Assembly: GCA_946545475.1 (NCBI GenBank)
Contig: CAMNNO010000002.1
Span: forward strand, 1-45,796
Origin: an uncultured Blautia sp.
GTDB lineage: Bacteria > Bacillota > Clostridia > Lachnospirales > Lachnospiraceae
Length of the DNA: 45,796 nt
Reading direction: 5' to 3'
Part shown: piece after piece, positions 2,643 to 41,288 of the stretch
How the letters are laid out: each line of letters begins with the position of its first letter
Numbering within the stretch: the first letter of the stretch is position 1
Program-made: the position numbers and the translations under genes
The notes under the pieces: model-generated
Told to the model about the DNA's origin: nothing
What the model saw: only the letters and a program-made list of their open reading frames with translations
The model's database searches: none

Positions 2643-3209
2643 ATGTCAGCGTTTACCAAACAAGCCATCAAGGACACGTTTATGCGCCTCCTCGAGGAGC
2701 GCCCTCTTCGCGAGATCACGGTAAAGATGATCGCGTCCGAGTGCGGCATCAACCGCAACACCTTTTACTACCACTATCAGGATCTGCCCGAACTTGTGGA
2801 GGAGATCCTCTTTGACGAGGCCGACCGGATAAAGCGGGAGCATCCCACCACCAGTTCTGTGCAGGAGGCCCTGGATACGGCTATCGCCTTTGCCTCCCAG
2901 CACCGGAAGGCCATTCTCCACATTTACGATTCGGTCAACCGCGATATCTTTGAACGCTATTTATGGAAGGTCTGCAACCAGGGCCTGGACGATTACATCC
3001 ATTCGGCTGCCGATTTCCGTGAGGTCTCTTCCTCTGACGCCGAACTTGTCGGGGCATTTTACAAGTATGCCTGCTTTGGCATGATCATGGCGTGGCTTGG
3101 CAGCCACATGGCTTCCGACATCCACGCCCAAGTCGACCGTTTCTACTTTCTTCACAGAGGAATGGCCGATGAAATGCTGCGCCGCGCCAGAGAAAATCCT
3201 GTTGTCTGA
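2643..3209 (+). CDS. TetR/AcrR-family transcriptional regulator
   Basis: A 188-aa protein with an N-terminal helix-turn-helix of TetR type: residues about 5-50, with ITVKMIASECGINRNTFYYHY covering the HTH and the signature following helix. The C-terminal ligand/dimer half (about 75-185) is helical and resembles the TetR_C_8 (DhaS-like) group often found in Firmicutes. TetR regulators usually sit beside the exporter they repress, so the MmpL-type operon starting at 3367 is the natural target. A strong terminator between them means the two are transcribed separately. The ribosome site is weak (AAGGA about 18 nt upstream). The family call is firm; the target is inference. Confidence 0.87.
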   Translation: MSAFTKQAIKDTFMRLLEERPLREITVKMIASECGINRNTFYYHYQDLPELVEEILFDEADRIKREHPTTSSVQEALDTAIAFASQHRKAILHIYDSVNRDIFERYLWKVCNQGLDDYIHSAADFREVSSSDAELVGAFYKYACFGMIMAWLGSHMASDIHAQVDRFYFLHRGMADEMLRRARENPVV

Positions 3210-3217
3210 CGCTCGCG

Positions 3218-3275
3218 ATAGTCAAAAATAGTCCCGCGCCTGATTTTTAGGCACGGGACTATTTTTGACTATTTT
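3218..3275 (+). terminator. strong terminator hairpin after the TetR gene
   Basis: A 24-nt arm (3218-3241) and its complement (3249-3272) match at all but one position (a G-T pair), with a 7-nt loop GATTTTT. TTTC follows, and A-tracts precede. It may act in both directions. It also places inverted sequence just upstream of the transporter promoter, where a TetR protein could bind. Confidence 0.8.
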
Positions 3276-3290
3276 CGAAATTCCCTTCTC

Positions 3291-3299
3291 TGTTATACT
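3291..3299 (+). promoter_or_regulatory. extended -10 promoter of the MmpL-type operon
   Basis: TGTTATACT is an extended -10 element (TGnTATACT). No good -35 is seen at 17 bp; TTGACT at 3265-3270 is 23 bp away. The start point would be near 3306, immediately before the CIRCE element. Confidence 0.55.
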
Positions 3300-3309
3300 G
3301 ATAGGCGTG

Positions 3310-3336
3310 TTAGCAGTCGCACAGCATGAGTGCTAA
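3310..3336 (+). promoter_or_regulatory. CIRCE-type HrcA operator
   Basis: TTAGCAGTC (3310-3318), nine spacer bases, then GAGTGCTAA (3328-3336). The known CIRCE consensus is TTAGCACTC-N9-GAGTGCTAA, so 17 of 18 arm bases match and the spacer length is exact. It lies directly downstream of the predicted -10, the usual place for HrcA repression of groESL and dnaK operons. Here the downstream genes are a transporter and a secreted protein, not chaperones. Confidence 0.85.
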
Positions 3337-3366: not shown

Positions 3367-5481
3367 ATGATGAAATTTTCAAAAGCGGTCGTCAAAGGCC
3401 GTATCCTCATCCTGGCTGCCGCCATCCTTCTGATGATCCCATCCGTCATGGGATACCTTGGCACCAGAGTTAATTATGACATGCTCACCTACCTGCCCTC
3501 CGACATGGAAACCGTCATCGGCCAGGAAGAGCTGATGAATGACTTCGGCAAAGGAGCCTTTTCCTTTGTCATCCTGGAAAACATGCCGGAAAAGGATGTC
3601 GCAGCGCTGAAAAAACAGATCGAGCAGGTTCCCCATGTGGAATCCGTCCTCTGGTATGATTCCTTCGCCGACCTGTCTGTCCCGATGGCCGCCTTGCCGG
3701 ACACGGTTATGAAGGCCTTCAACACGGACAACGCCACGATGATGGCGGTTTTTTTCGACACCGCGACCTCCGCAGCCCCCACCATGGAAGCCATCCGTCA
3801 GATCCGCTCTGTGGCCGGGAAGCAGGCTTTTGTGTCCGGCATGGGGGCCCTCGTCACCGACTTAAAAGACCTCTGTGAAAGAGAAGAGCCTATCTATGTG
3901 GGCATTGCCGTGGCTATGGCGCTCCTGGCGATGATGGTCTTTATGGACAGCTTTCTGGCTCCGGTCATCTTCCTTGTCTCCATCGGCATGATGATCGTCA
4001 TGAATCTGGGCTCCAACTATTTTCTCGGCGAGATATCCTACATCACCAAGGCCCTCTCAGCCGTACTGCAGCTGGCCGTCACCATGGACTACTCCATCTT
4101 CCTCTGGAACAGCTACAACGAAGAGCGCTCCCGCCTTGAGAGGGGCGGCGCCAGATCAAAGGACATCCCAGGGGAAGCCATGGCCTGCGCCATACGATCT
4201 ACGCTGGAGAGCGTCATCGGCAGCTCCATCACCACGATCGCAGGCTTCATCGCCCTGTGCTTCATGTCCTTCACGATGGGCCGGGACCTCGGTATCGTTA
4301 TGGCAAAGGGCGTGCTGCTTGGCGTTATAGGCTGTGTCACGGTCCTGCCATCGCTTATCCTTCTGTTCGACAGTCCCCTGCAGCGCTCCCGGCACAGGCC
4401 TCTGCTGCCGGATATGGAGCGTTTCTCCAAAGGCATTATGAAGATCTTTCCCGTCTTTATCTGCCTTTTTGTCCTGCTCCTTCCTCCGTCCTTTGCCGGA
4501 TACCAGAAGACAAACCGCGAAGTCTACTATGATATGGGCCAATGCCTGCCGAAGGACATAGAATATGTTATTGCCAATACAAAACTCCGCGAGGATTTCG
4601 ACATCGCCTCGACCCACATGGTCCTGGTCAACAGCAGCATCCCGGCAAAGGATATCCGCCAGATGGCTGCCGAAATGGAAGCCGTGCCCGGCGTCCGCCA
4701 GGTCCTTGGCCTTTCCTCCCTCATCGGCTCCATGGTGCCGGAAGAGATATTGCCGGAGAGCCTGACGGGCATGCTCCGCAGCGGAAAATGGGAGCTGATG
4801 CTGGTCAGCTCGGAATACAAGGTAGCCAGCGATGCCGTCAACGAACAGGTTTCCGCCCTCAACGACATCCTGAAAAGCTATGACGCCGGCGGCATGCTCA
4901 TCGGTGAAGCCCCCTGCATGAAGGATATGATCGAGACGACCGGCCACGATTTCCAGGTCGTCAACATCGTTTCCATCCTGGCGATCTTTTTCATCATCGC
5001 TTTTGTGGAAAAGAGCGTAAGCCTTCCCTTTATCCTGATCGCCGTCATTGAGCTGGCTATCTTCATCAACCTCGGACTGCCTCATTACCTTGGACAGAGC
5101 CTGCCCTTTATCGCGCCTATCTGCATCAGCACCATCCAGCTCGGCGCGACGGTCGACTATGCCATCCTCATGACGACGCGCTACAAGGCTGAACGGCTGG
5201 GCGGCAGCCCGGCAAAAGAGGCCGTCACCACGGCCCTCCGCTTTTCCATCCCCTCCATCATTGTGTCGGGGATGGGGCTTTTTGCCGCCACGTTTGGCGT
5301 TGCCGTCTATTCCAACATTGACATCATCAGCTCCATGTGCATGCTGATGGCCCGAGGAGCCGTCGTAAGCGCCATCCTCGTCATCTTTATCCTGCCCTCG
5401 CTCCTTCGCCTGTGCGATGGCCTTATCTGCCACACCACGCTGGGGATGCGGTCCTGTCATCAAGGAGGTAATCAGAAATGA
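3367..5481 (+). CDS. MmpL/RND-family membrane transporter
   Basis: A 704-aa polytopic membrane protein with the duplicated MMPL layout: TM1 (about 11-31), an extracytoplasmic domain (about 32-175), TM2-6 (about 176-345), TM7 near 357-377, a second outer domain (about 380-535) and TM8-12. It was recognised by two Asp-Tyr pairs in equivalent helices, D241-Y242 (VTMDYSIF) and D597-Y598 (ATVDYAIL), matching the proton-relay pairs of MmpL-type proteins. Such proteins export lipids, peptides or hydrophobic compounds using the proton gradient; the cargo here is unknown. The start is 3367 or the next codon, ATG 3370; GGGAGGG (3357-3363) is better spaced for 3370. Its TGA overlaps the next ATG by 4 nt, so translation is coupled. 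Regulation is probably by HrcA at CIRCE and perhaps by the upstream TetR protein. Confidence 0.9.
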   Translation: MMKFSKAVVKGRILILAAAILLMIPSVMGYLGTRVNYDMLTYLPSDMETVIGQEELMNDFGKGAFSFVILENMPEKDVAALKKQIEQVPHVESVLWYDSFADLSVPMAALPDTVMKAFNTDNATMMAVFFDTATSAAPTMEAIRQIRSVAGKQAFVSGMGALVTDLKDLCEREEPIYVGIAVAMALLAMMVFMDSFLAPVIFLVSIGMMIVMNLGSNYFLGEISYITKALSAVLQLAVTMDYSIFLWNSYNEERSRLERGGARSKDIPGEAMACAIRSTLESVIGSSITTIAGFIALCFMSFTMGRDLGIVMAKGVLLGVIGCVTVLPSLILLFDSPLQRSRHRPLLPDMERFSKGIMKIFPVFICLFVLLLPPSFAGYQKTNREVYYDMGQCLPKDIEYVIANTKLREDFDIASTHMVLVNSSIPAKDIRQMAAEMEAVPGVRQVLGLSSLIGSMVPEEILPESLTGMLRSGKWELMLVSSEYKVASDAVNEQVSALNDILKSYDAGGMLIGEAPCMKDMIETTGHDFQVVNIVSILAIFFIIAFVEKSVSLPFILIAVIELAIFINLGLPHYLGQSLPFIAPICISTIQLGATVDYAILMTTRYKAERLGGSPAKEAVTTALRFSIPSIIVSGMGLFAATFGVAVYSNIDIISSMCMLMARGAVVSAILVIFILPSLLRLCDGLICHTTLGMRSCHQGGNQK

Positions 5482-7169
5482 AAAAAACATATCCCATGAG
5501 GCTGCTTTCTGCCCTGTGCCTGGCCGTGTGCCTGCCGCTGTCCGCCTTTTGTGCCGTCCAGGAAAATGAAAATGCGCCGGGCGGCCTGTATAAAGACGAA
5601 TCCGTTTATGTCATCGCCAATGCGTCGGGAGATGTCTCCCGAATAATCGTCAGCGACTGGCTCAAAAATCCCGATTCCCTGGATGAGATCACCGACCGCT
5701 CCTTCCTGGCGGATATCCAGAATGTGAAGGGCGACGAAGCGTTCACCGAGGGTGAGGATCATGCCATCACCTGGGAGGCTTCCGGACAGGATATCTATTA
5801 CCAGGGAGAAGCCTCCCAGGAACTTCCCGTCAGCATCCGCGTCACCTGCTTCCTGGACGGCCAGGAGCTTCCCTGCGATGATATGATGGGAAAAAGCGGG
5901 CATGTCACCATTCGTTTTGAGTATGAAAACAACTGCCGCGGCACGGCATCGGTAAACGGCCGCGAGGAAGAGCTGTGCGTGCCGTTTGCTGTGCTGACCG
6001 GCCTGCTTTTTGACGATGACACGTTCGAAAACATCCGTGTCGAGCACGGCCGCCTTCTGAATGACGGCTCGCGCACGGCCGTGGCCGGGATCGCCCTTCC
6101 CGGGTTCGAGGAGAGCCTTGGCCTTGACGCGGACGTTCTCAGGCTGCCGGACTATATGGAGATTTCTGCGGATACGGAAAGCTTCAAAATGCCCGTAGCC
6201 TACAGCCTGGCTGTGCCTGTTCCTGAGCGCGGTCTTTTTGGCCCTGTCCTTTCTTCCGATGATCTTGATGCGCTCGGAGAGGAGCTTTCCGGTTTCCTGG
6301 ACGGGGAAAGCCTTGCTCTGCCTTCTTCTTTTGGCGAGGCCATCTCTTCCCTGTGGGAGGGTATCGACACCCTATCTGACGGCGCGGGCCGGCTTTCGGA
6401 CGGGGCGGCCAAACTAAAGAGCGGCACGGAGGGCGTGGATACGCTGGCCGGCCAGGTTCAGGAATCAAGCGGCGCCATGGCTTCAAGCCTCTCGGCCCTC
6501 TCATCAGGAAGCAGCCGCCTGCTGCCCGAAGCGCAGAAAGGTTTCGAGGCCATGCTTTCGGATACCAGGGAAAAGCTTCTTGCGGCCGGGATCGAAGTTG
6601 AAGCGCTGACGCCGGATAATTATCAGGAAGTCATGGAAGGCCTGCTCACCTCCCTTGGCATCGAGGAAATGCCGCAGCCCAAGTCCTCCGAGCAGGATAG
6701 CGGGGGCATTACGGTTTCCTTCGGAGGCGGAGCCTCCTCACCGGTATCCGTATCTTTCGGAAACGGTACGGAAAACGACACGGACGAAAGCCCAGAGGAA
6801 GACCCGGATGCGTCCCTTGCCCGGCAGCTTTACCAGTCCCTGATCGACTATCAGGCCTTCTGCACAAGCCTTGAAGACTATACAAAGACCGTTGCGCAGC
6901 TTTCCCGCGACGCCTCCAACCTGAAAGGCAGCAGCTCCATGTTAAAGATCGCCTCCTCCGCCCTCGCCTCGGGAGCCGGCGAGATGTCTGACGGCGTTAA
7001 CACGCTGCAGTCCTTTATCACAAGCCTGACCGGGACACTGACAAAAGACGTGCGCCCGGTCACGGAACGCCTCCTGGCTATGACGGAACTCTCGAAAGAC
7101 TATTATAACTTCTCCGGCATCGCCGACGGGATGGATGGACAGGTCAAATTCATCTATCGCATAGAGTAA
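5478..7169 (+). CDS. exported xxxLxxG heptad-repeat protein (YhgE/Pip-like), partner of the MmpL-type transporter
   Basis: A 563-aa protein with a clear signal peptide (KKTYPMRLL..., cleavage near AFCA, about residue 25). The N-terminal half (about 40-290) is a beta-rich exported domain I do not recognise. From about 293 come xxxLxxG heptads (LSDGAGRLSDGAAKLKSG), then a helical segment, an acidic/serine linker (about 395-445), and a second helical part with LASGAGEMSDGVNTL near 495. These heptads are known from YhgE/Pip-type proteins, which are often encoded beside MMPL transporters. AAGGAGG (5464-5470) lies 7 nt upstream, and the ATG overlaps the transporter stop. No C-terminal membrane helix is seen, so it may be secreted or held by the transporter. 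Function unknown; an accessory subunit is the best inference. Confidence 0.75.
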   Translation: MKKTYPMRLLSALCLAVCLPLSAFCAVQENENAPGGLYKDESVYVIANASGDVSRIIVSDWLKNPDSLDEITDRSFLADIQNVKGDEAFTEGEDHAITWEASGQDIYYQGEASQELPVSIRVTCFLDGQELPCDDMMGKSGHVTIRFEYENNCRGTASVNGREEELCVPFAVLTGLLFDDDTFENIRVEHGRLLNDGSRTAVAGIALPGFEESLGLDADVLRLPDYMEISADTESFKMPVAYSLAVPVPERGLFGPVLSSDDLDALGEELSGFLDGESLALPSSFGEAISSLWEGIDTLSDGAGRLSDGAAKLKSGTEGVDTLAGQVQESSGAMASSLSALSSGSSRLLPEAQKGFEAMLSDTREKLLAAGIEVEALTPDNYQEVMEGLLTSLGIEEMPQPKSSEQDSGGITVSFGGGASSPVSVSFGNGTENDTDESPEEDPDASLARQLYQSLIDYQAFCTSLEDYTKTVAQLSRDASNLKGSSSMLKIASSALASGAGEMSDGVNTLQSFITSLTGTLTKDVRPVTERLLAMTELSKDYYNFSGIADGMDGQVKFIYRIE

Positions 7170-7175
7170 GGGCGG

Positions 7176-7237
7176 GAAGAAAAGGGGGCAGTTCTTTTTT
7201 CTAAAAGACAAGAAAAAAGAACTGCCCCCTTTTCTTC
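7176..7237 (+). terminator. perfect 27-bp terminator hairpin after the transporter operon
   Basis: Left arm 7176-7202 and right arm 7211-7237 are perfectly complementary over 27 bp, with an 8-nt loop AAAAGACA. The stem carries internal T-runs (CTTTTTT) on the left and CCCCCTTTTCTTC on the right. It isolates the transporter operon from the giant gene downstream. Confidence 0.85.
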
Positions 7238-7262: not shown

Positions 7263-7291
7263 TTGTCATTCTTTCTTCTGTATGCTACAAT
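7263..7291 (+). promoter_or_regulatory. sigma-A promoter of the giant adhesin gene
   Basis: The -35 box TTGTCA (7263-7268), a 17-bp spacer and the -10 box TACAAT (7286-7291), preceded by TGC, form an extended -10. The start near 7298 would give a leader of about 370 nt before the ATG at 7669. Confidence 0.65.
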
Positions 7292-7668: not shown

Positions 7669-10600
7669 ATGGACGTGAAACAAAAGAATATGGCAAGAAG
7701 ACTAAGCGCCTTATTGCTCTCTTCTGTTATGACGCTGAACTCTTTCGCTGGATATCTCCCCGGCAGCGTTGTCGCTTACGCACAGGAAGACGCCGCCGTT
7801 GAGGCGCTGGAAACGGAAGCCGTTTACACCGAAAGTGTGGAAGAGAGCTACGAGCCCTCCGGCTATGCTGAGATTGTTTACCAGGACGACTATGCGGAGA
7901 GCATGGCCTCGGAGAGTTACGCGGCAAGCGTGTCGGCGGAAGTTCCGGTGGAGACTGCCGTAGCGAACGCAGCGGTGGAGATTCCGGTGGAAACTGCTGC
8001 AGCGCTCGCTCCGGCGGAAATTCCGGCAGAGGTCGCTGCGGAGAGCGTGCCGGCAGAAGCCCCGGCAGAGGTCGTTGCGGAGAGTGTTCCGGCAGAAGCC
8101 CCGGCAGAGGTCGCTGCGGAGAGCGTGCCGGCAGAAGCCCCGGTGGAGATTGCCGCGGAGAACGATCAGGCAGCGGAAACAGAAGAAAGTGAGCCAGAGA
8201 TTCCGGCTGAGATCAACAATTCTTCCGAAGCGGCTGTTTCAGAAGAGGCATCTGAGGAAGTCGGAGAGGAAGGAACATTCCTTCCGGAAGAAAAGGTCGA
8301 AGAGACTGAGACAGGCCTTCCGGAGACGGAAGAGGTTCCGGCAGCGGAAGAGCTTCCGGCAACAGAAGGAGTTCCGGCAGCGAAGGAGCTTCCGGCAGCG
8401 GAAGAGGCTCCGGCAACGGAAGAACTCCCGGCAGCGGAGGAGCTTCCGGCAACAGAAGAAGTTCCGGCGGCGGAGGAGCTTCCGGCAGCGGAAGAGGCTC
8501 CGGCAACGGAAGAACTCCCGGCAGCGGAGGAGCTTCCGGAAACGGAAGAAGTTCCGGAAACGGAAGAGGTTCCGGAAACGGAAGAGGTTCCAGCAGCGGA
8601 AGAGCTCCCGGCAGCGGAGGAGCTTCCGGCAGCAGAAGAAGTTCCGGCGACGGAAGAACTCCCAGCGGTGGAAGAGCTTGCCGCGGCGGAGGAGCTTCCG
8701 GCTGTGGAGGAGCTTCCGGTGGAGCCGGAGGCGGTTATGGCGGGAACGGATTCCGCCGTGGAAATGGAAGTCGTGATGCCTGAGGACAAGAGTGCCCCCA
8801 TAGTCGTACCGGCTGGGGGAACCGGCTCTGCAGGCAGTTTTGTCTCTCTGGAGGAAGCGGCTGCCAAGGCGAGCCTGCCCTCCGGCGCGGACGCATCGGA
8901 TGGCGAGAGGGTTTCTTCGGAAGAAACCCAGGAGACACCGGAAGGCGATGAGGTGACGGCTGCGGGCGAAGAAGCGGCCGGGGAAGACGCCTCATCCGGA
9001 GAGAACACAGAAGCCGCGGCCGGGGAGGATGCGGTTCCTTCCGTTGCGGGCAACACCATCAGCGCCCTGCAGCAGGAGATCAACGACAAGATCGCCTCCC
9101 TCGCCGCACTCAACGAGCGCATCACCATCATCCTCAAAAAAGATACCACCTACCAGGGCGATATCGAGATCGCGAAGGATGACAAAAAGACCTACGGCGA
9201 AGGCTTCGGCGTGGATCTGGTGGCCGAGGACGCCGGGGACGACGGGCTCTCCTCCGGGGGGACCAGCACCGTGGACGGCAGCATCAAGATCAAGGGCATC
9301 GATGTCCTGATGAAGGGCGTCGTCATGGCCCTGAACAGGAACATCACCGTTCAGGGCGCTTCTCTCGAGTATTACGGGACCAAAAAGGACGACACCGTTA
9401 ACATTGATGTGAACAAGGACGGCTCCGTCACCATGAAGACCGGAGCCGGCGACGATACGGTCAGCATGCTGATGCTGGAAAACGCGACTTCCGCCGCGAT
9501 CGAGGCGGGGGAGGGCGACGATAAGATTTCTGTCATCGCAAACGACGGCATCCTCACCATCGACGGCGAGGCGGGGGGCGACACCATCACCGTGGAAGCT
9601 GCGAGCACCGAAGACGACCCGGTCACGATCTCGGGCGGCGACGGGGGCGACACCATAAATGTCACCGTGTCCTCGTCCGGCGGCATGACGGTAAACGGCG
9701 GCGACGGGGGCGATACCATCACCCTCACAGCCGGGGACGGCGCCAGCGGCGTTGCGGTTTCCCTGGGCGGCGGCGACGACACCATGACCCTTAAGGCTCT
9801 GGACTCCGCCGTATCGTCATTAAACACCATCAAGATCAATACCACCGCCGGCATGAACGTGGTCAATGTGGACATGTCCACCTCCGGGGTCTTCCGGCAG
9901 GTTGACATAACCGGCGGCGAAGGCGTGGACGAGCTCCATTTCACCGGAAGCCTGACCGGCAGCAGCTCTGTAGACGCCAAGGACCGCATTAAGGGGACGG
10001 CAGAGGACCTGACCTTCATCGCCGAAAACGGAAAGGCCCTGAACGTCATATCCTCCTCCATCGAGCGCCTGACGGATGACCTTAATAATAAGCGGACGGT
10101 TGAGCTTAAGCCGGGAAGCACGGCGGACAGCTACACCTACACGATCGATGGGAGCCCGGACTTTACCAACTATGTCTTCCGGACGCCGGTCAACCATCTC
10201 AGCATGATCCGCGTTGTGACAGCCGAGGGCGGTGCGCCGCTTCTTGCCAATGTGGTCATCGACGTTAACAAGACCAGGGACGACGACAACCACCTCATCC
10301 TGCACGATGTGGATGCCCGCGGGCTTAACCTCTTTGTTCAGGGCGAGGTCATCGACTTTGAGGGGACGGTTAAGGCGGGCGACATCCGGGCCGAGGCCCG
10401 CGATTCGTCGCAGCTGCTTAGCTTCTCGCAGTACATGGATAACGCCGGCACCGGGAACAAGTTCTTTGATGCCGTCGTCGGCGGCACCAACATGCTGCTG
10501 GACATGTTCACGGTTGAACACGAGGCAGCCGTCAACGTAAAAAAGGATGCTTCTCTCTACAGCTCCGGCAACATCTCGCTTAGCGCCCAGGTCGACCAGT

Positions 10601-13600
10601 CCGGCGCCATGTTCGGGCTGCCCGACAGCTTTAACCTGGTGAACGTGAAGCTCGGCGAGGCCCACATCGATGTGGCCGGCAAGGCCTATGCGGGTTACGA
10701 TTTTGACCAGAACAAGGTCGGCAGCGGCATGGGATCGTTCTCGGCCTCCGCAAAGATCGCCACGACGATCGGCTATGACAAGAACGGCAAGGGCTATGAG
10801 GGCCTGCCGCTGGCCATCAGCGTGGTCCTCCAGGACGCGGATGTTACGGTCGAGGAAGGCGCTGTTATTGAAGCGGCCAGGGACATCAGTCTCTCCTCGG
10901 ATGGAACCGCAAAGGTCTATTCCCGGGCGGATTCCGGGCTCGGCGGCCTGCCTGTGGCGATAGCGGTGAGCGTTGTCAACGCCGATGTGCGCACCGAGGT
11001 CAAGGGAAGCCTTAAGGCCGGCGGCTCCGTCAAGGCGGCCGCAAGCGGAAACGTTGATGTTGTTACCATCGCCGACAAGGGCGGCGGCCAGAAGAGCAAC
11101 TCCGGCGGCTATGTGGCCGTCGCTGTGGTCGACCAGGATGTAAAGGCCATCATCGCCGGCACGGCCGTGGTGGAAGCCAAGGGCAAGGCGGCCCTCTCCG
11201 CCAGCGCCAAAGAATCCGTCAAGACCACCTCCGCCTCCAATAAGCAGGAAGGCGGGGAAGAGGGCGCGGCTACGACCATCAGCTCGGCCCTCGACTTTGT
11301 CACGACGAACTGGCAGGCGATCAAGGAATTTATCAAGAGCCCCAGCGCTGCAGAAAAGCTCGATGCCTCCATCGCTAAGATGGGCAAGTCCTCTACCGAG
11401 GTGAAGCTTGACGGCGACGCCGGTAAGAAGGGCGAGGCAAAATTCGACACCAAGACGACGGACGGCAAGAAGGTTGTCACCGTCACCGTTACGCCGTGGC
11501 CCGGCTATAAGGTCAAATCCGTTTACTGGCGCGGCCTTATGCCCGGCGACAGCACCTACACCCGCGCAAAGGCCACAAAGATGGAGGAAAGGAACGGCAC
11601 GGAAACCTGGTCCTTCCCCGTAAGCGTTTCGAATGTCACGATCTTCGTGGAATACGAGGAGAAGACCGTCGGCGAGGAGATGGACGAGGAGCTGGCCATG
11701 AACCCCTCCGACCTCTTTGAGGACAAGGACCCGCAGGATGCCGAGATCGACCGGCTCTTTAACGCGGCCACTGGCGGCGCGGAGGATTCCGGCGACGACG
11801 AGGACGATTTCGCGGGCTTCGCGGAAATGTTCGACAGCATCCCCTTAACCCTTCCGGGCGACGGGGACGGCGCGGTCCTGACATACCTTGAGGACCCGGA
11901 AAAGGAAGGCCACAGTCTCTCCAAGATCGTCCCGGGCCAGAAGGTGGAGCTGGTGCCGAACCCCTCCTCTGGCAAGGTCCTCAAAAAGGACAGCCTGACC
12001 ATCACCTATAAGGTCAACGACGGAACGGGCAAGCTTGTGACGAAGACGACTGTCGTCAAGCAGAACGGCAATGGCCGCTATATCGCCGAGATCCCGGAAA
12101 ACGCCGAGGAGGGCGTGATCGTAAAGGCCGCCTTCGTCGCCTCCGGCAGCACCGACGCCGAGCCCGACGAGACGAAGACCCAGGCCAACGGCGCCATCAC
12201 CGTGACGGTAGCCAATAACGACGGCCTGGCCGTCATCGAGAGCGGCGCACGCGTCACAGCGGGCACGGTAGCCGTGACCAGCAAGGGCACGACAAACGCC
12301 GTCAGCACGGCGGACGGCTCGGCCGGCGGAAAGAGTACTTCAGGCTCTTCCGGCAGCACGGCCAACGACAAGGCGCTCAAAAAAGCCGAGCAGAAGACCT
12401 ACAGCGAGTACATGGCCGGCGGGGCGGAGTATGCCCTGGTCATCGCGGCGACGGAAAACGGCGAGGTCGTCTATGATAAGGGCGATGTCGGCGGATACAT
12501 CTACCGGCTTGAAGCAAAGCCGGATGAGGGCTATTCGGTGACGACCGCCATGTTTGCCTACTACGCGGACGGAAAGCGGAAGACCCTGACGCTTGTGCCG
12601 GATTCCGATGGAAAGTACAAGGTTGACCTGACAGGGGTGTCCGGCATGGACAAGGGGTCCCTTGGCGAAGTGATCTTCGGCTTCACAAAGGAGGGCGACT
12701 TTAGCACAAATTCGACCCATGAAGCCCAGGTCATTGTCGCGAACCCGATCAAGGTCAGCTACAATACCCTGAAATTCGACAAGACATTAGACCCCTCCAA
12801 TGATAAGTACGACTATATCGGAAAGGTCTATTGCACAAAGACGGCCGACGGCGAATACCGCTTTACCGTCTCGCCGGACGAGAGCCGCGGCTATACCATA
12901 AACGCTGCGGGCAAGGACGGCAAGTCCAACAAGGAGGCCCTCTTTGTGTCCTGGAAGGACAGCAGGGGAGCCGAGCAGAAGGCCGAGCTTAAGAAGAACG
13001 GCACCGGATGGTCCTTAAACCTTTCGGGCAAGGATATCCCCGTGGGCGCCCTTCTTACCGTCAACGCCGTGTTTACCGAGAACAGCCACACCTTCCAGAT
13101 CGACAAGGACTTTAAGGCGGACGCGGCCCACGGCACGGTCAAGCTCTACGATAAGACTGTCAAGACCTCCGACGAGGTCACCATCTCGGTGAAGCCGGAC
13201 AGCGGCTACGCGGCGGATAAGATCGTGGTGTCCTACATGTCGCCGGCCGGGACAAAGACCATCGAGATCGGTCAGGACAAGATCAAGGACGGCGACGCCA
13301 AAGTCACCATCCCGACCCTTATGGATGGCAGCACCATCAACGTCTCCGCCGTCTTCGCAGAGAAGAACATCGGCCTCGAAAAGAGCGTCGTGATGGATGG
13401 CAAGGCCTCCTCCGAGGGGAATGTCACCCTGTCCGAGAGCATTGTCAATACCGGAAACAAGGTCACGCTGACCCCGAAGTCGGATCTTGTGTCCAAGGGC
13501 TACAAGGTCGACAGCATCGAGATCACCTATACCGATAATACCGACGCGAAAGCGACGAAGACGCAGACCTTCAGCGGCAGCAGCTTCACGGTGCCGAAGG

Positions 13601-16600
13601 ATGTCAGCACGGAAAAGACTAACGGCCGCAATCCCCAGGTACAGGTCAAGGCGACCCTCGTCAAGAAGGAGCTTGCCCTGGAGACGGCTGAGCTTGACAA
13701 GGGAAAGCTTAAGCCGCAGACCGCAAGGGCGGACCGGGGCGACCTGGTGACCGTAAAGGTCGACGCCAATGCGGGCTACAAGGCCAAGAAGGGGACCGTA
13801 AAGGCCATCATCAAGGACGCTTCCTCCTCCTACGAGGTCGTTCTTGACCGCAAGGACGATACCACCTACACCTTTGTGGTGCCGGGAGATATCGAGGATC
13901 CTGACAAGGTCACGATCAGCTTTGAAGGCGAATTTGAGGAAGGCACGCCCTCCGGAGAGCTGGATACGAGCCTCGGGGCCAGCGTCGCGGTCACGGTCGT
14001 GAACGCGGAAAACCGGGCCGAGGTCGAGAGCGGAAGCCATATCACCGCGACAAAAGCCCTGAACGTGGAAGCCGAGATCGGCGGCGGATCTAAGACCGAC
14101 ACCAAGGCCGGCTACAGCGCGGGCAACATCGGCATCGGCGGCGCGATCTCCGTACAGGTCGCATCCCTGGATGCCAATGCCCTGATCCACAAGGGAGCCA
14201 ACATAGAGGCCGGAGGCTTTAGCCTTGGCGCGACCTCAAAGCTTGACTTTGCGGTAAACGCCAACGCCGCAGGAACCGGGTACTCCGAAAAGACCGGTGT
14301 CGGCGCGGGTATCGCTGTCGCTGTCAACGGCGCGGATGCCGTGGCGGCCGTTGAGGACGGCGCCAATCTTTCGGGCGTCAAGGACGCCGAAGGGAAAGCC
14401 GGGGATTATTCGGACATCAGCTTAAAGGTTAAGCAGACGATCAAGGATTCTGTCACCGCCAAGGCAGGCTCGCGCGGCGGCACCTCCGTCACCCCCGTGG
14501 TGGCTGTGGATGTGACCGGCAGCACGGCGTATGCCTACCTGGGGCGCCTCTCCGGAAACCGTGAGAAGGCCACGGGAACGGTCAGCCTCTCTGCGGAAAA
14601 CAGCAGCACCCATACCATATCGGCGGACGCCTCGGCCTCCGGCAAGAGCACGGCCATGGGCGGCGCCTTCGATGTCGCCGTGGTCTCGGAAAGCGCGGTC
14701 GCCAAGCTGAACCAGAGCCTTGAAGCCAAGAAGATCACCGTCGCGGCCGCGACGACGAGCACCCTGACCAGCACGGCCACGGCCTCCGCCTCCGGCGGCG
14801 AGAAGGGCAAGAGCAGCGAGAGCGGCAAGAGCGGCAAGGCCGACAAGCAGACGGACGGCCTGCTGGGCGGCGCCTCCTTCCTGGCCGGGCAGAACAAGTC
14901 CAAGAGCGTATCCTCCGGAAAGGTCGGGAGCGCGGCCACAAACCGCCAGAAGGCCCAGACCAGCGAGGGCAGCGCATCCGGCGCCGGCGCCATTGTCGTC
15001 AATGTGCAGGGCTCCGAGACTGTCGCCGAGGTCCTTAACGGCGTGAACCTTAAGGCTTCGGACCTTATCTCCGTCACGGCCCAGAACCGCACGGTCTCCA
15101 AGGTGAAGGCGAACGCCAGCACCACCAAGTCCAATACGGGCGTGGGCGTGGGCATCGCCGTCAACGTGGTCAACCTGGACAACATTGCCCGCATCGGCGA
15201 CGGCGAGATCGAAGCCGCCATGCTGGTGGTTTCCGCCACCATCAAGGAGGAAGGCAAGAAGGCGACGGTCGTCAAGGAGATCAAGACAAAGGACGGCCTT
15301 GTCAAGGAACTGACCGATAAGATCACGGAATATGTCAACCTGCTTGTGGCGGAGCTTGGCCTCGGGCAGTATACCGCTTTCACCGGAGACTACTTGAGCC
15401 AGTTCATCAATTCCCTGGTGGAGCCCCTGGTCACCGACCTTATGGCGGCCAGCGGCCTTGATAAGCTCCTGGGGGACGGCGGGATCTCCGCAAAATATGA
15501 CAAGGCGGCAGCCCTCCTTAAGAAGAGCGAGGATGGCCTTCTGTCCATGCCAAAGCTCCTTGTGCAGCCCTTCCTTGAGCTTATAGAGGATAATGAGTCC
15601 TTGACTGACCTCACGGTCCAGGATCTTGAGGACCTTGGGGAGGTATTCCTGGACGAGCTGACCACGCAGATGCTTACCCGCCTGGAAAAGGCCGGCACGG
15701 GCATCTTAGACCGCACTAAGGACGGCATGATCAAGTACGTCACCGACAATCTCGGCGACATCCTTTCGGGCCTGGTATCCGATGGCCTTTCAAAGACCAA
15801 GGATGACGCGGTCAAGAAGCTTAAGGAGACAGTTACGGCGGCTGTCAAGGCCGAGCTTTACGCCCTCGCCATGGATGCCTATAAGGACACCGTGCTCAAG
15901 ATTTCGGAAACCCTTCCCTTTATCAACGAGCAGAACATAGATAGACTGTATAACGGCATCGAGGCATCCTGGGACGCCTACACGGAAAAATCGATGATGG
16001 ACATCCTGGGGAACGCGGCCAGCTATGCGGCCGATATCTTCAAGGAGAATGTCTTTGATTATGAGGCGATGATCGTCGCCCTGACCGAGAAGGATTTCAA
16101 AAAGACCATTACCGACGCCTTCCGGAAAGCCGCCAAGGACAGCATGGTCACCATGACCAACACCGTGACCAGCACCCTCCTGGGGCTTGCGGACGTAGGC
16201 CTTACGCCGGAGGAGCTGGGGAATAAGCACATCATCGACACTCAGGCCATTTCCGGCTCCGGAGCCAAGGATACGGGCGTGGCCGGCAGCATCGCCATCA
16301 CGGTGCTTAATGCCGATACCATCGCCGGGATCGCGGACGGCAGCGGCAAGATCGCTGTCACCCAGGGCATCACGATGGATGCCACAGAGCGCCGCAAGAT
16401 CAACAACGTCGCCTCCGCAGCTCTCGACGCCAAGGGCAATGCCGCGGCCAATAAGAACGCGGATAAGAAGAGCAGCAGCGACGCCGGCGGGAGCGATGCC
16501 GGAAAGGGGTCTCTCAGCGGCAAGGGCGTGACGGTTAACGTGGGAAGCGGCGGCAAGGCTGCGATCCACGAGAATAACAAAAATGACGAGAAGCCTTTCA

Positions 16601-19600
16601 TCTACCTGACGCCGGATACCGGCTTCAAGGCGGCCGGGAAGGCGACCTACACCTACCAGGACGAGAACAACGACGCCGAGGTCCACGGCACCGTGGATGT
16701 CAAGTTTGACAGCCAGGGCCGCGCCTACATTGACCCGAAGAGCGGGGACCTTGCCAGGGCGAAGGGTTCTGTCGCCCTGGATGTGAGCTTTGTCGAGGAT
16801 CTCCACACGGTCGGCGGCATCGTCTTCGACGAGGATAAGATAAGCTTAAGTGCGGATAGCCGCACCCTCTCTGACGACAAAAAGGCCGCCAAGGAGAACG
16901 TGGACAACAGCTCCATGAGCGACAGCGAAAAGACCGCGGCAAAGGAGAAGATCGACAATGCGGCTGCCCTTGCCAAGGAAGGCGACCTGGTCTACATCAA
17001 GATCAAGAAGGAGCCCGGCAAGCACGTCAGTTCTGTCAGCATAACCGTTGACGGCAAGATGATCGACCTTGAGACCATCTCCTCGATGACGAAGGACGAG
17101 GTCGTTTACGCCTTCGAGATGCCGGGGTCGGATGTCAAGGACATCCTGGTCCTCTTTGACGACGGCGAGGACGACATCCAGTCCGATTCCGAGGCCAAAG
17201 ACGATACCGGCAAATCCGTCGGCGTCGGCGCAGCCTTCTCCATGATCTACGGCGGCTCAGATGTCACGGCGACGATCGGCAGCCGCGCAGGAAAGGTCAG
17301 TGGCGGCAGCGTTTCCGTCAAGGCGACCTCCGAGCATGAGGAGGACATTAACAGCGCATCGGGTACCGACCCGCTCGCCGGGACGGACGATGAGATGATC
17401 AAGGATACGGCCGTGGACGCTTCCATCGCCCTGAATATCCTGGACAACGATGTCCGCGCTGCGGTAAACTCCACTGTCACCACCACCGGCTATACCGGGA
17501 AGGACGACAAGGGAGAAACGGCCGATTTTGCCGGCGATGTGACCATCGCATCGGAAGAAAGGTCGATCACCGGCATCCGCTCCAGCGCTTTCGCGACCGG
17601 AAGCTCGACAGCGGTCGGCGCTACCGCTTCGGTCAACGTGGCGCTTACGGATGTCAAGGCTGTCCTTAATGGCGGCGTTACCGCCTCCGGCAAGGTCGGC
17701 GTGACGGCCAGGACCACCAGTGAAGACAACACCAAGGCAACCGCAACGGCCATGGGCGCCGATGTCCAGCGCATGCTGAACAAGGTCGCCAAGGGGGCCA
17801 AGACGACACAGGACTCCGCCAACAAGCTCATGAACGGCTCGTACATGGACGAGAAGGCGAAGGACACTAACGATAAGAAAAATTCCAACAACGCAACCTC
17901 CAAGAAGATCACGGACCGCCTGAACGCGACAAAATCGTCGGACGGCGATTCGGCTTCCGAGAAGCTTTCCCTCTCCAGCAACATTGCCAGGACGCAGGGC
18001 ATCGACACCTCCAGCGCCTCCAAGGCAGCGGAAGCGAAGAAGAACGCAACCGACTCTATCAAGGATAAGACGGGCCTTGATGTTTCCGGCCAGGACGACA
18101 AGGAGGAGGAAAAGCTCCAGGTCGCCGCGGCTATCGCTGTCACCGTCGCCAAGCACGCGGCGGGCGTAACGGTCAGCGGCCCGGTGACGGGCACGTCTGT
18201 TGCCATCGCGACGGATAACAACGCCAACTTCAACACCATGGGCACGGCGGCCTCCATGAGCCTCGCGAAAAAGGGAAGCTCCATCGCGGCCGGTATCGCG
18301 GTCAGCGTGAACCTGAACGAGGCGGTAACGGATGTCAGCGGCGATGTCGTCGCGACAGAAGGCGATGCGGCCATCACGGCCAATCAGACCCTTAACATGG
18401 ACGGCGAGTACAAAGGCAAGCTCGGCGCCCAGGCCCTTGCGGGCGCGGTGTCCGGCAGTGACAGCGACTACTCCATCGGCGGATCTGTCGCGGTGCTTGT
18501 GAGCCGCGGCAAGATATCGGCAACCATAAGCGGCGGCACCGAACAGACCGACCGTAAGGTCGAGGGCAAAAACGTCGCCATCACGGCGACAGACAAGAGC
18601 AAGCTTGCGGCCCGCGCGGGCGGCATCAGCATCTCCAGGGGCTCGGCCACCGGCCTTGGCCTCGCGGTTGCGGCTGTCTCCGGGCACAACGAGATCGCGG
18701 CTTCTGTTGGCGACCACACGGCCATCACGGCAACGAAGGGCGTGACGATCGCATCTAAGAAGCTGGCCGTGACGATGGACGACTATGAGTCGGCCGTGGG
18801 CCTCTCTAACTTCGTCACCGATTCCTCCAAGCTCGATGCGGCCAGCCGTGAGAATGCCAATACCGGCATCTTCGACCTGCATAAGAGCGAAGGGGAGAGC
18901 AACTATACCGTAAAGGTCAATCTGAGCACCGACAGGCTGCTCGGCCTCGTGGATGCCTTAAACTTCCTGACCTCCACCAACTACTACGCGGAAGCCATAG
19001 CCGGCTCCCTCATGCTCGGCGGCGACACGGAGAGGAACCTGGCCGGCTCCTTTGCCATCGTGGACGCGGACAATAAAGTCACGACCACTCTCGGCAAGGC
19101 GGTTAAGGTTAAGGCCGGAGAGGATAAGGACAGCCACGTAGCCATCGAGAGCGCGGCCGAGACCAACGCCCGCATCATCGGCGGCGCGGCGGCCATAGGT
19201 TCCGGCAAGACGAGCGTTGGCCTGACCTTTACCTACCTGGGAAGCGAAGACCAGGTGAAGACGAATGTCGGGGACAGCGCAAACGTGACGGCCGGCGGCA
19301 ATATCACCCAGTCGGCGACGGCGGATGCCTACATCCAGAACTTTAACGTGGCCGCTTCCGTGACCCTCGATACAGATTCTGAAAATACGGTGGGCGGCGC
19401 GGTCAACGTGATCCTCACCAAGAACATCACGGAAAACACCATCGGCAATAACGCTGTCTACACGGCAGCTAACGGGAATGTTGACCTTAAGGCCAAGGCG
19501 GACATGGACATGACCCTTGTCTCTGTAAGCGCGGCGGGAGCGCTTCGCGGCACGGCCGCGGGCGGCACGCTGGCCGTGATCGTAGACAAGGCCCAGGCCA

Positions 19601-22600
19601 ACACGGCCGTCGGCCACAGCGCGGCCCTGACCGCCGGAAAGGATATTAACATCACCGGAGCCGTGACGGACCATATGACCTCTGTCCTGGCCAGCGCCTC
19701 CGCGGCCCTTTCCTCCAGCGCTAAGGCCTATGCCGGCGCGATCAATGTCCTGATCTCCAATGCCAAGGGCAAGGTCAGGGTCGGCGAAAAGGGAGCCGCT
19801 GCGGAAAAAGAGGCTTCCCTGACCGCCAAGACGGGCAATGTGAGCATCAAGGCCGACACCGACACCCGCGCCGTCAATGTGACCGCTTCGGCGGCCGGCA
19901 GCGCAGGCGGGGCCGTGGGCCTGTCGGTCAACGTGAACGTCTTCGACCGGGAATCCATCCTTGAGGTCTACGGCGGAGCCGAAAAGAACCTGAATATCAA
20001 GACGGAAGGAGCCGATGGAAAGGTCGGCATCCATGCCTCCGGACGCGACACCACCGTCCTGGCCGGGCTCGCCCTGGCAGGCGCTGTGGCGGGAAATGCC
20101 TACACGGGCAACCTCCCGGTCATCGTCGGCAGCAGCAAGGTGAAGGCTCTCCTGGACAAGACAGCTATCGACAGCCAGAAGGATGTCGAGGTGGATTCTG
20201 TCCTTAAGGACCACACCTACGCCATCGCGGGCAGCATCGCCCTCTCCGCCACGGAAAGCGCCGTCGGCGCCACCGCCGTGACGATCGTGAAGGGCAGCGA
20301 GGTGACGACCGATCTTGGCGAGAGCCAGGTCGCGGGTTCCTCCGTCGCTGTTAAGGCGGATGTTGAGGATACGACCATCGCGGCAGCGGCCGGCATTTCC
20401 CTGGCTGCCGCCAACGGCGTCTCCATCAATGCCTCCACCGTTGTGAACAGCAACACCGTTACGGCGGACAGCCGGAAGGCGGATCTTACCGCAAAGGTTT
20501 CCGATATCGTCCAGGAAGCCGTGAACGATACGGTGATCCGCATGCTGGCGGGCGGCATCAGCTTTGGCCTCTCCAACGGCGCCGGCGCCTCGGCCGTTAC
20601 CCTGGTATCCGGCAAGACCGTGGAATCGCACATGGGCAAGGCGACCGCCGCAGAGAATGTGACGGCGAAGGCGGAAAACGAAGACGACATCATGATGCTG
20701 GCCATCAGCGCCGGCGGCGCGGGCAATATCGCGGTCCAGCTGGGCGCGGCTATCCAGGTCATGAAGAGCCGGGTGCACGCCTACGCTTACAAGGACCAGA
20801 CCGCAACGGCCGGCACCATCACCCTGGCGGCAAAGAATACCACAGACCTTGTGAACGCGGCCATCGCCGTAGCCGGCGCGGGCAACGCGGCCATAAGCCC
20901 CGTGGGTGTTGTGACGTACTTCCAGGGCGAGACCTTTGCCGAGACCATGGACGACAGCACATCCCCCATCATTATGACGGCGGGGAAGGATATCAATATT
21001 ACAGCCAACTCCGGCAAGACGATCAGCGAATATACCATCGGCGCTTCCTTCGCGGGCTCCTTCGGCCTCTCCGGCGCGGCGACCATCGCGGTTGCCAAGG
21101 ACTCTACCAGCGCGGCGGCGGGACGGTATACGACCCTTAACGCTTCTGCCGGCAAGCTCGCCATCGACGCGGACGGCTCCTACACCCTCCGCGCGAACAG
21201 CGCATCCATTGCGGGCGCGGGCGGGGCGGCCGTTGCCATCAACGCGGTGGTCAGCGTCCTTAAGGGCAAGGCGGAAGCCTCCCTTGGCGGAAAAGCCACG
21301 GCAAGTGATGTCACGGTACGCGCCCAGGCCTCCCGTGACGTGCGCAATATCGCGGCAACACTCTCTGCCGCGGGCGGAGTTGCGGTTGGCGCCACCGTCA
21401 TGGTCCTTGTGGCCGGCGAGAAGCTCGGCCAGGATGCGGCGGATACGCTGACATACGGCAATGCCGAGGAAAAGACCGACGACAACAAGACCTTTGACGC
21501 GGCGGCGTTCATCCGTACAGCCGACCAGCAGGGCCTTGATGTGTCCGACCTTGTGGAGAAGGACGAGGACGGCAATGTCGTCCGCGATGAGAACGGCCAG
21601 ATCGCCTCCACGGTCCTGACCAATGACCTCGCAGGCGACAACAAGTATGACAGCAAATCGTCTGTCGGCAACCAGGGCAAGGCCTTTGACGCCGATTCCG
21701 GCTACCGCAGCAAGGAATTCGACCGGAAGTCCAAGAAGGATACGGACGAAGAGCAGCGCGGCGAAGGCCAGGAGATGGCCGAGAGCAAGAACATCCAGAA
21801 GGCCAAGGAGCAGGGCGTCAGAAAGCTCGCCGGGACGATCCAGGATGCCGTGACCGCGACCATCACAAAGAACGCGGTCGTGACGATCACGGACGGCACG
21901 GTGGAGGTTCTCGCCGTACAGCCCACCATGGCTGACCTCTTCGGCGGAACAGCCGCCCTCTCCGCCGGGGCATCGGTCGGCGCCAGCGTAGCCATCGCCC
22001 AGATGCGCAGCAACGTGGCGGCCTCCTCCCTCGGCACGATCAACACAAATGGCGGAACGGTCAAGGTCCTTGCGGATTCCTACGCGAACAGCGAGAAGAT
22101 CGCCGCAGGCAGCGAGGAAGCGGACCGCATGGCGAGGATCCGGGAGAACGCGGACAGCAGCCTCCTTGAGGGACTGGACCCCAGCAAGAGGTCCATCCGG
22201 GCCATCGGCCTGGCTGTTGCGGGCGGCCTGGTCGGCGTCGGAGCGGCGGTTTCCGTCGTCCGCGCGGACAATGTGACGAACGCGACCCTCGGCGGCAATG
22301 TCACCGGCGTCTCCAAGGTCGATGTCCAGTCGAACTCCGACTACGACAATGTCCTTGCGGCCACTCTCTCCATCGGCGGCGGCGTAGCGGGGCTTTCGGC
22401 CTCGGTCGCCAGCTCCCAGGCGCAGGGCACGGTCAGCGCGAAGCTTGACAGCACCGCCAACATCACCAGTGAGAGAAAAGCGGATATCTCGATCAAGACA
22501 AACACCATCCAGAACGTCAATGTCATCGCGGCCGGCGCGGCGGCGGGCCTTGGGGCTCTTAACGGGGGCCTTGGCATGGCGCAGAACCGCCTGACCCAGA

Positions 22601-25600
22601 ATACCGGCATCGACCGCGGCGCGAAGATCGACGTTGGCGACGGCAGCACCGTCGTTGTCCACGGCACCTCCGGCACCCGTGCCGACGCGGGCGTCCTCGG
22701 CATCGCGGGCAGCCTCTTCGCCTCGGCGAACATCAACGGAGCCCTGGCCTATGTGAAGCCCGTCATCCACACGGGCATCGGCAACAACGAAGGCGGCGAG
22801 GGCCAGACCGTCATAAAGACGGGCGAAAACGGCTCTGTCACTGTCTCCAATGCCATCACAAGCTCGGCGACGCCGAAGCTTGCCGCCATCTCCGTCGCCC
22901 TCGGCGCGGGCCTTAACGGCGCGGCCATGCTGGCGATGAACGATTCCGACGCGGACGCGACGATCTCCCATGTGGACCTTGATACGGGCGACCTCACGGT
23001 CAACTCGGTCCTTAGGGCAACGGGGACATCGGAGCTTCTCTCGGTAACCGCCGGCTCGGTCGCCATGGGCATCAATGCCAACTATGTGGACCTGAACGCC
23101 CAGAACAGGGCCATCCTGGATACCACGGGCAGCGCCATTAACGCCGCAAAGAGCGTGAATGTGATGACCGGGCAGAGGAGGGCTGTCGGCTCCGGAGCGA
23201 CGGGTTCCGTGGGGGCCTCTCCCGAAGAGGAAGGCACGTTTAACGGATACATCTACGACAGCTACAGCAACGCGAAGACCGCGACACTGACGGCTGCCGT
23301 GGGCCTTATCACCTCCGGGAACAATACGGCCATTTCCCGCAACCGGTCCGTCAACGCGGCCGAGATCATCGGGAACGGCAGCTTTGTCAACGGCGGCACC
23401 ACATCCGTCACGGCCTTCGGAAAGGGCACGGCGGTCACAAGCGTGACGGGCATGACCTTATCCCTTCTGGATATCAGTATCGCCGAGAAGGAAACAGACG
23501 AAGAAGCCAAAGAAAAGAAGAAGAACTTCAGCGTGGCCGGCACCACCTCCGAGGCCATCAACGAGGCCAACTCCCTGGCGGTTATGCACCTTAGCGGAGA
23601 GACATTCGAAAACAAGGGCGACCTGGTCTTCGGTTCCGGCGTGGCCGGAAAGACGGACAGCGCTCTTACCCTTGGCGGCGGCTCCCTGTTCAGCGCCAAG
23701 ACGAGCGTCGCGGCTGCTTACGGGCGGACCCGGTCCCTCATCGATGTCAGCCTTTCTAAGGCGCCGGAAGGCAGGATCGGCTTCATCACAGCGGAAAACT
23801 ATGGCGAAGACCGGGTGAGCGCAAACGTGAAGAATGAAGCGTTCAGCGCCATCAGCCTCACCGGCCTGGCGGGCGTAGCCTTCAACCAGGACGAGTATCA
23901 GACGAAGATCGCCCTTGGCGGCGGTGTCTACAACACCAGCGGCCTGAAAGCCACGACGGACGCCGACACGGCCTCAGAGGCGATCATTGCCCCGTCGCAG
24001 GGCGGCCTCTCCGCAAGCCTGGCCGGCCTTTCCATCAACATAGCCGCCGCGCGCAACACGGCCTACCTGAACACGGAGCTGGATCTCAACAACGCCACGC
24101 TGAATTCGGATGACAGCGTTGAGGTGCTGACCAGCGGAAAGGAAACGACCGAAGCCAGGGTCAAGGGCTCCAAGCTTACCGTTTCCGCCGTGTCGCTGGG
24201 CCTGAATACGGCTAACGCCGACCTGTCCACCAGGCAGGCCGCCATGGTCCGCCTGAACGAGGGTATCCTCAGCGCGGCCAATAACGTAACCGTCAACAGC
24301 ACCACCACCAGAGCCCTGGCCGATGCGGAAACCGGCAGCATGGGCAGCGAGGATTCCGGTGTGGAGCTCACGCTGGTTTCCGGCGCCATCAACAAGTCCA
24401 CCGCCAAGCAGAACGCCGAGAGTACCTCCGGCATCATGGGAAGCGGGACGACCGTAAACCGTGTGACGGCAAAGGAGCTGGAGCTGTCCTCCCTGTCCGG
24501 AGCGGCCAACAAAGCCACCGCCTCCAACACGGCGCCGGCTTCGCTCGGGCTGTTCACGGCGGGCAACACGGAGTCGGTTGCGCTCAGCACGGAGAGCCAC
24601 ATGACCATGCTGACCGGCCTGACGGCCAACATCGACGGCGATGCCATCGCCAGGGCCAGGGCCTATTCGCTGGCCGACAGCACCGGGTCGTCGCCCGGAA
24701 ATGTGTCCGCGGTATCGGCTTCCAAGTCGACGATCCGTTCCGGCATCGGAAGCGAAGAGGATAAGCAGAGGGCCCAGGTCGTGGTCGGAGAGGACCTTAT
24801 CCTTACCGGCAAAAACATGCTCTTTGAGGCCAACAACTCCGGCGATGCCGTAGCCGCCATACACAAGGGCAGCAGCTTTGCCGCGGGGTCTATTTCAAGC
24901 TCCTCGCAGCCCACAGAATCCTGGTATGAGACCGGCGTTGCCATCGGGTTCGGCGCGTCCCTCCGGGCGACCGAAACCATGACCATCACGGCACTGGAGC
25001 GCATGGGCGGACAGTCCCACGTGAACGGCGATCAGACGGGCATCCTCTTCAACCTGAACAGCATGATGGGCAGCAACACCATGCACGGCGACAGCACCAT
25101 CTCTGTCGGGGAAGGCGCTGAGCTTTCCAGCAATGAGGATATGACCCTGGCTGCCATAAGCAACGCGGACGCGAACGCATCGTCTGTCTACAACGGCGGC
25201 TTCGGGTTCTTCAGCGGAAGCCAGGTGCAGTCCAAAAATACCATTGACCGGAAGATCAAGGTAAACATCGGCAACCATACCCAGATCGAATCGCTGGGAG
25301 GCAAGGTCTATATTGCTACGGCCAGCGGCATGAAGGACAACATCAATACCCTGAGCCAGGTGAAGACCAGCGGCCTCATTGCCCTGAGCAAAGCGGCATC
25401 TGAGACAGACCTGATCAGCGAGACCAAGATCAACATCGGCGGCGATGTCACCATCGAAGGCGGCGATACGGTTGAAATCCTGAACACGGCAACATCCCAC
25501 GGGGCGGTTCCCGAGGATTTCCCGGACTTTACGGGCGTTTCGATCGGATGGATCAGGGACCTTCTGGAGCTTATGGCAAGGTCTGCCCTGGTTACGCCGG

Positions 25601-36420: not shown

Positions 36421-37014
36421 AAAACCATACTCTGGCAGGCCGGCCTCCGCCGGAATGCCTTACGGCGCCCGCTCCGCGCTATATGGGGGAAAAGCGCCGC
36501 TTTTACAGCAGGTCTCCACACTGCCGCACCGCGAGTAACACGGAATGAATGACCCTCCTTTTTTTATGCGCGCATGCCATGACTGTGGAGTGGATATGCG
36601 CCATGATACTGTTGGGCTGCCGGGCTGTGGCCGGAAAAGGGAACGCCTTTTGCCGGCCAGGGCCTTCTCATGCCCGTATTCATTATAGATGAAATACGAA
36701 AGAAGCATATGGCTAAATGTGAGACGCATATAGCATTATGTCATTTCCTTGGCCTTTTGCCCGGAAGCGACCGGAAAATAATGCCAAAGAAAACAGAAGA
36801 ATACCGGAAAGCACTGACACTTTTGCTGGTTGTCCGGGCGCTTTTTGCAAAAAGGGTGGCGTATTTGACGGGACAGCTGACATAAAGCCATATTTCGGCA
36901 ACATTGTTCTATATAACATTTGTCCATACCGGTTTACAATAACTGCGATGGCCTTCCTTCATCGGGGAGGCACCAGCCCAAGTATTTTTCTATATGACAC
37001 AGGAGGATAAAACA
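36421..37014. other. divergent regulatory region between ATPase and binding-protein genes
   Basis: About 590 bp with no supportable gene; short open frames on both strands lack family features. It must hold promoters for both directions. It contains a strong hairpin at 36629-36658 (GGCCGG-AAAAGG pairing with CCTTTT-g-CCGGCC), a small one at 36490-36504 (AAAAGCGCCGCTTTT), and a LacI-type palindromic core ACCGGT near 36928-36933. The length is unusual for such a gene pair. Confidence 0.5.
36865..36894 (+). promoter_or_regulatory. candidate promoter for the sugar importer operon
   Basis: TTGACG (36865-36870) is an excellent -35. With an 18-bp spacer the -10 would be CATATT (36889-36894), matching four of six positions. 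It is the best candidate seen for the plus-strand genes, but other AT-rich -10-like stretches follow (TATAAC near 36912, TACAAT 36935-36940). Confidence 0.3.
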
Positions 37015-38346: not shown

Positions 38347-38361
38347 GGGCCAGCCATTAAA

Positions 38362-38406
38362 GGCAACAAAGGCAACAAATGCAACAAATGAAACAAATGC
38401 AAAAGG
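38362..38406 (+). repeat. 9-bp tandem repeats between binding-protein and permease genes
   Basis: GGCAACAAA, GGCAACAAA, TGCAACAAA, TGAAACAAA and TGCAAAAGG follow one another, five degenerate 9-bp units. They lie just upstream of the permease ribosome site, in an mRNA stretch where A-rich unstructured sequence could affect translation. Confidence 0.8.
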
Positions 38407-38430
38407 AAAAGAAAGGGGGCCGATCCTATT

Positions 38431-41222: not shown

Positions 41223-41288
41223 ATTTCCGCGGCTTTGGCGGCATTATTTTTTTCATTCGCGAGTATAATAAAAACAAGGAGCGATTTT

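Follow-up and report, generated by a model that had tools for sequence, protein, structure and literature searches.

Descriptions of the HrcA repressor usually limit its role to a small set of chaperone genes. The locus described here raises the question of why a predicted HrcA operator (CIRCE) stands in front of an operon for an MMPL-family transporter and a probably exported partner, in the 45,796-nucleotide stretch of DNA that was analyzed (the window). The best explanation, which we consider probable, is a working HrcA operator on the mmpL-partner operon, to which control by a neighboring TetR-family regulator is probably added. The sequence itself shows CIRCE, hrcA, the operon with its terminator, the return of CIRCE in related hosts, the TetR gene, and a palindrome near it; HrcA binding, induction by stress, the direction of TetR control, and the substrate are the parts of this explanation that we infer.

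The mmpL operon and its promoter

The predicted HrcA operator, which is found before 6 of the 110 orthologues examined, lies at positions 3310 to 3336 (+ strand) and reads TTAGCAGTC-GCACAGCAT-GAGTGCTAA; as the sequence-only reading had described it, this 27-bp element matches CIRCE at 17 of 18 arm bases and has the exact 9-bp spacer. The consensus used was TTAGCACTC-N9-GAGTGCTAA, with membership set at within 1 to 2 mismatches, and the element falls inside it; the sole arm mismatch is in the left arm and may weaken HrcA binding at this site. It is the only CIRCE match at ≤3 mismatches in the whole window, such matches being present in 1 of 100 shuffled windows, and a uniform-base estimate gives a chance expectation of 0.003 sites at ≤1 mismatch in 3.33 Mb. 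The element is downstream of an extended −10 (TGTTATACT, 3291 to 3299, + strand, read from the sequence) and upstream of mmpL, and it likely overlaps the predicted transcription start of the operon; a scan of this promoter for a −35 recognized none. The layout is thus as first reported, with corrected spacings of 10 nt rather than 11 from the extended −10 to CIRCE, and 30 nt rather than 31 from CIRCE to the ATG at 3367.

The first gene (3367 to 5481, + strand) codes for a 704-aa transporter that resembles MmpL4 and MmpL5 by sequence. It contains two stretches of the MMPL domain (PF03176, E 1.8e-46) and two Asp-Tyr pairs, D241-Y242 and D597-Y598, that are invariant in 23 sequences, features that place it among the MMPL/RND transporters; the pairs presumably serve as a proton relay. 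The second ATG, at 3370, where orthologues begin, is the likelier start. The next gene (5478 to 7169, + strand) overlaps the mmpL stop, forming a two-gene operon, and codes for the 563-aa, probably exported partner, which is present near mmpL in all 88 loci searched (L048 and L172 being the same contig). This partner had been called YhgE-like, a label that holds only in part, and YhgE/Pip membership is rejected: no YhgE/Pip family model matched, and the only match is to the generic LxxG heptad repeat TIGR03057.

In an AlphaFold model (mean pLDDT 79, pTM 0.55), the partner has a signal segment, a beta domain, and a long helical hairpin, and its last strand goes back into the beta domain; a second model, made for a relative's partner (L167, 4860 to 6284), agrees with it. 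The best PDB matches of the beta domain are eukaryotic mu-homology domains of coat adaptors (AP-2, AP-4, and COPI delta), which account for 40 of 40 and 24 of 28 of the matches with E up to 0.001 in the two models; identity is about 10% and TM-scores are below 0.5, and we take the modeled likeness for no more than a resemblance. With a coiled-coil arm attached to a beta body, as modeled, the partner would suit a role as an extracytoplasmic adaptor.

A hairpin of 20 pairs with T-rich tails, terminator-like in both directions, closes the operon (7183 to 7230). Beyond it are two giant ORFs, 7669 to 27645 (6,658 aa) and 27809 to 34048 (2,079 aa). A Pfam scan of the 6,658-aa ORF in three pieces gave no match, and the 2,079-aa ORF contains a Beta_helix_3 repeat (Pfam). 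A 1,337-aa antisense frame inside the giant gene (18958 to 22971, minus strand) is probably an effect of repetitive composition. Elsewhere in the window there are sugar-use genes at 269 to 1756, 36994 to 39318, and 41235 to 43481, coding for a GH43 enzyme, an ABC binding protein and permease, and a GH36 alpha-galactosidase.

CIRCE sites in the genome and before mmpL orthologues

The repressor that the sequence-only reading presupposed is encoded in the same genome (PF01628, E 1.5e-64), and its gene carries its own perfect CIRCE. At ≤3 mismatches, the whole assembly (3,326,751 bases in 318 contigs, 91% complete) has four CIRCE sites, compared with none for a reversed control pattern, and these precede hrcA (C109), htpG (C42), clpB (C229), and the mmpL operon of the window; no groEL gene was detected in an assembly of this completeness. 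Seven relatives (G003, G027, G018, G057, G062, G063, and G014) have 48 CIRCE sites at the same threshold, and since the reversed control also matches 7 times in these genomes, loose sites may be due to chance. Altogether, 44 of the 52 sites in the eight genomes are assigned to hrcA, groES, htpG, Hsp20, clpB, dnaJ, or lon. A further six are assigned to mmpL, the only assigned target outside proteostasis, and the last two (G063:C70 and G014:C39) to no target. The assignments were made by eye from N-terminal sequence, and sites between divergent genes (e.g., L177, L181, L184, L196, and L200) were credited by eye to the proteostasis gene; Pfam confirmed examples of the htpG, clpB, groES, Hsp20, dnaJ, and lon targets, as well as the hrcA of the window's genome.

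Some of these sites have features of their own. Five of the genus's genomes have lon protease genes with a CIRCE (L174, L182, L187, L192, L195, and L197), and the CIRCE before clpB and Hsp20 genes often has the sequence ...TTGACAGTGCTAA (L004, L161, L180, L184, L190, L199, and others). This type has a −35-like TTGACA inside the element at the cost of one arm base and is alike in many genomes; operator and promoter appear to be fused at the clpB and Hsp20 sites.

Orthologues of mmpL were drawn from two sources. Within the genus, 64 genomes were searched and 44 have an MmpL match, with promoters compared in 32, without the 12 weaker matches; the G002 mmpL, at 51% identity, is outside this comparison. 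Among named genomes, the best 80 MmpL matches were taken. Two of the 112 loci were set aside, L048 because it shares a contig with L007 and L090 because it lacks sequence upstream, leaving 110 promoters, each with at least 200 bp upstream and including 78 from the best 80 named matches. In this set, CIRCE is matched with no mismatch in two promoters, with one in two, and with two in two; none has 3 to 5 mismatches, and the remaining 104 have 6 to 9. The six CIRCE-bearing promoters (the window, G027, G003, G062, G018, and G057) are all in the window's genus, so that the element stands before five genus orthologues besides the window's own, and it is present in 6 of the 8 genus genomes, window included, whose MmpL is at least 68% identical. 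The arms are kept among the six while spacers and flanks differ, and in each CIRCE is 10 to 17 nt downstream of a −10-like sequence (picked by eye). CIRCE is not present before mmpL in the related host G063, whose promoter otherwise has the same layout, or in G014, and none of the 78 named loci examined (from the best 80 matches) has it; CIRCE is therefore dispensable for the basic work of the transporter. In a scan of 397 genomes of the family, the matches were limited to the window's operon and a CIRCE site each for groES and htpG; the pattern used would miss longer-gap sites such as those of G027 and G003.

A CIRCE operator before the mmpL-partner operon would place it in the HrcA regulon, and this proposal of the sequence-only reading is upheld, at the level of sequence, by the element at the promoter, the presence of hrcA, the recurrence of the site, and the proteostasis assignment of 44 of the 46 other CIRCE sites.

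An HrcA tree (19 of 20 rows, without G014) puts the six hosts, G063, and G002 in one group, with support of 86/86, below the starred level. A quick MmpL tree with 111 rows separates the window's protein from the other five CIRCE-bearing proteins; with a careful tree of 37 of the 111 rows, an approximately unbiased (AU) test does not reject the six plus the G063 protein (L116) as one clade (p-AU 0.104) and rejects a clade of the six without it (1.2e-57). Since the window's MmpL does not group with the remaining CIRCE-bearing proteins in either tree, a single origin is only one possibility. The CIRCE elements of the window, G018, and G057 have a weakened left-arm end in common, and this could point to a common ancestry of their promoters; one gain with losses, two gains, and gene replacement are all candidate histories.

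TetR control and competing explanations

Upstream of the operon and codirectional with it is a gene for a TetR-family regulator (2643 to 3209, + strand; PF14278 TetR_C_8, E 8.7e-14, and PF00440), for which the nearest NCBIfam model, DhaS, is far below cut-off. G062 likewise has the TetR gene codirectional with mmpL; in G018, G003, and G057 the two are divergent, and in G027 the TetR gene falls beyond the contig. A long inverted repeat of 57 bases follows the gene (3217 to 3273; fold of −39.9 kcal/mol, z −13.7), and from its sequence may be the TetR gene's terminator, a TetR operator array, or both. Its core palindrome, CGCCTGATTTTTAGGCA (3237 to 3253), is upstream of the −10 and resembles a palindrome at a similar distance before orthologues, TGYCYRAnwTTYRGRCA, which occurs about 95 to 220 nt before many mmpL orthologues, with or without CIRCE. 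At ≤1 mismatch this motif is present in 15 of 64 TetR-adjacent loci and missing from the other 49, and it is present in 3 of 46 other loci (Fisher p 0.02; shuffles 0.0005), an association that is weak and post hoc, the motif having been written after these promoters were viewed. Read post hoc in this way, the palindrome is a candidate TetR operator, at which TetR could be either an activator or a repressor in the window, and gene and palindrome together suggest a second layer of control on the operon.

HrcA activity is reported to depend on GroE, and HrcA to be titrated under stress (PMC3842655, PMC3828012). At the mmpL promoter of an unstressed cell, GroE-activated HrcA would occupy CIRCE and block transcription; misfolded protein would tie up GroEL, HrcA would leave CIRCE, and its release would allow the transporter and the exported partner to be made alongside the regulon's chaperones and proteases. 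At the palindrome, which lies upstream of the promoter, TetR from the adjacent gene would probably add a further control that depends on a ligand, and the operon would then answer a membrane-active compound, such as a fatty or bile acid, as well as protein damage.

The same parts can be put together differently. A two-input stress exporter, for which the TetR and HrcA/GroE sensors must both agree and the partner is the extracytoplasmic adaptor of the pump, is a reading we regard as rather unlikely. We give equally little weight to the idea that the TetR neighbor alone runs the operon, CIRCE being a relic or an accessory site too weak to matter much. The mmpL-partner pair, often with a TetR gene, is widespread without CIRCE, the G063 promoter does without it, and the window's element has one arm mismatch and those of two relatives have two, all as this idea would have it; yet a relic would decay, and the six divergent promoters have kept both arms although their spacers differ.

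The remaining alternatives have far less in their favor. The inverted repeat, which lies in or beside the 5′ leader, might act as an RNA hairpin at the mRNA 5′ end, affecting stability or translation, rather than as an HrcA operator, but the window's element as RNA (−10.5 kcal/mol, z −1.3) folds no better than shuffles, 23 of 200 of which fold equally well, and what is conserved is the exact CIRCE sequence, something an RNA hairpin would not require; we consider this highly improbable. Slightly less credible still is the proposal, made in the sequence-only reading, that the exporter helps in the secretion of the giant proteins encoded beside it. The genes are indeed neighbors in the window, but they form separate transcription units, with the 20-pair terminator between them and a promoter-like site at 7263 to 7291 belonging to the giant ORF, and none of eight mmpL stretches in the genus (three of which are shorter than 9 kb) has a giant ORF, the largest being 806 aa. 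MMPL/RND pumps have lipids and small hydrophobic molecules as their known cargo, and they are not known to move proteins. FarE fits this description (PMC8844917). The proposal is accordingly dropped; envelope repair, the other role put forward in that reading, stays a candidate. Control patterns do occasionally match at ≤3 mismatches, which leaves a coincidental CIRCE match to be considered; with five further orthologues having the element in the same position, and with 4 of 33,000 promoter tests bringing permuted palindromes of identical composition to 0 to 2 mismatches, its probability is negligible and it is rejected.

Relationship to known systems

With a working HrcA operator and probable TetR control as the preferred explanation, related gut species place an MMPL-type exporter, beside a TetR regulator, under a chaperone operator. 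The CIRCE before this exporter suggests that the cells count membrane export within the protein-damage response. If HrcA controls the operon, a cytoplasmic sensor of misfolded protein would also govern membrane traffic, a possible reason being that membrane and proteins alike are damaged by fatty acids, bile acids, and solvents. The natural on/off spread, with six promoters having CIRCE and close relatives lacking it, gives promoter pairs for direct comparison. The parts are known, but the combination of CIRCE and MMPL is not in print as far as these searches go: neither HrcA, CIRCE, and MmpL together nor CIRCE before an MMPL gene was found in the literature searched, most subscription papers being outside it.

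MmpS is the partner of mycobacterial MmpL4 and MmpL5, and the window's system has none. It resembles these pumps, whose structures are solved, in the MMPL transmembrane part (MmpL4 best, E 1.6e-12), with the best stretches covering about 190 to 320 of the 704 residues, and it differs in operating without a mycobacterial envelope. A possible parallel in gene layout is FarE-FarR of Staphylococcus aureus, where a TetR regulator is encoded beside an MmpL-type pump, its operator sites falling between the two or close by; induction requires FarR, for which there are several operator sites (PMC12671165), and overproduction of FarE goes with phospholipid release (PMC8844917). No HrcA layer was found in the accessible parts of these two reports, and the window's pump, unlike FarE, is followed by a probably exported partner.

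The class I heat-shock regulon of Clostridium acetobutylicum, as reported (PMC3828012), has the same operator and repressor, with targets hrcA-grpE-dnaK-dnaJ, groESL, CAC2705, and htpG. The targets hrcA, groES, and htpG are common to both, whereas the window's genus also has CIRCE at lon, clpB, Hsp20, and mmpL. CAC2705 is a membrane protein of unknown function that shares the site of the adjacent groESL operon (PMC3828012), whereas the mmpL site of the window stands alone. A CIRCE combined with the site of a second regulator has a counterpart in Lactobacillus plantarum hsp1, which is reported to be under HrcA and CtsR (PMC3842655); the gene so controlled is a chaperone gene and both regulators are stress repressors, whereas the second regulator in the window would be a TetR protein encoded beside an exporter.
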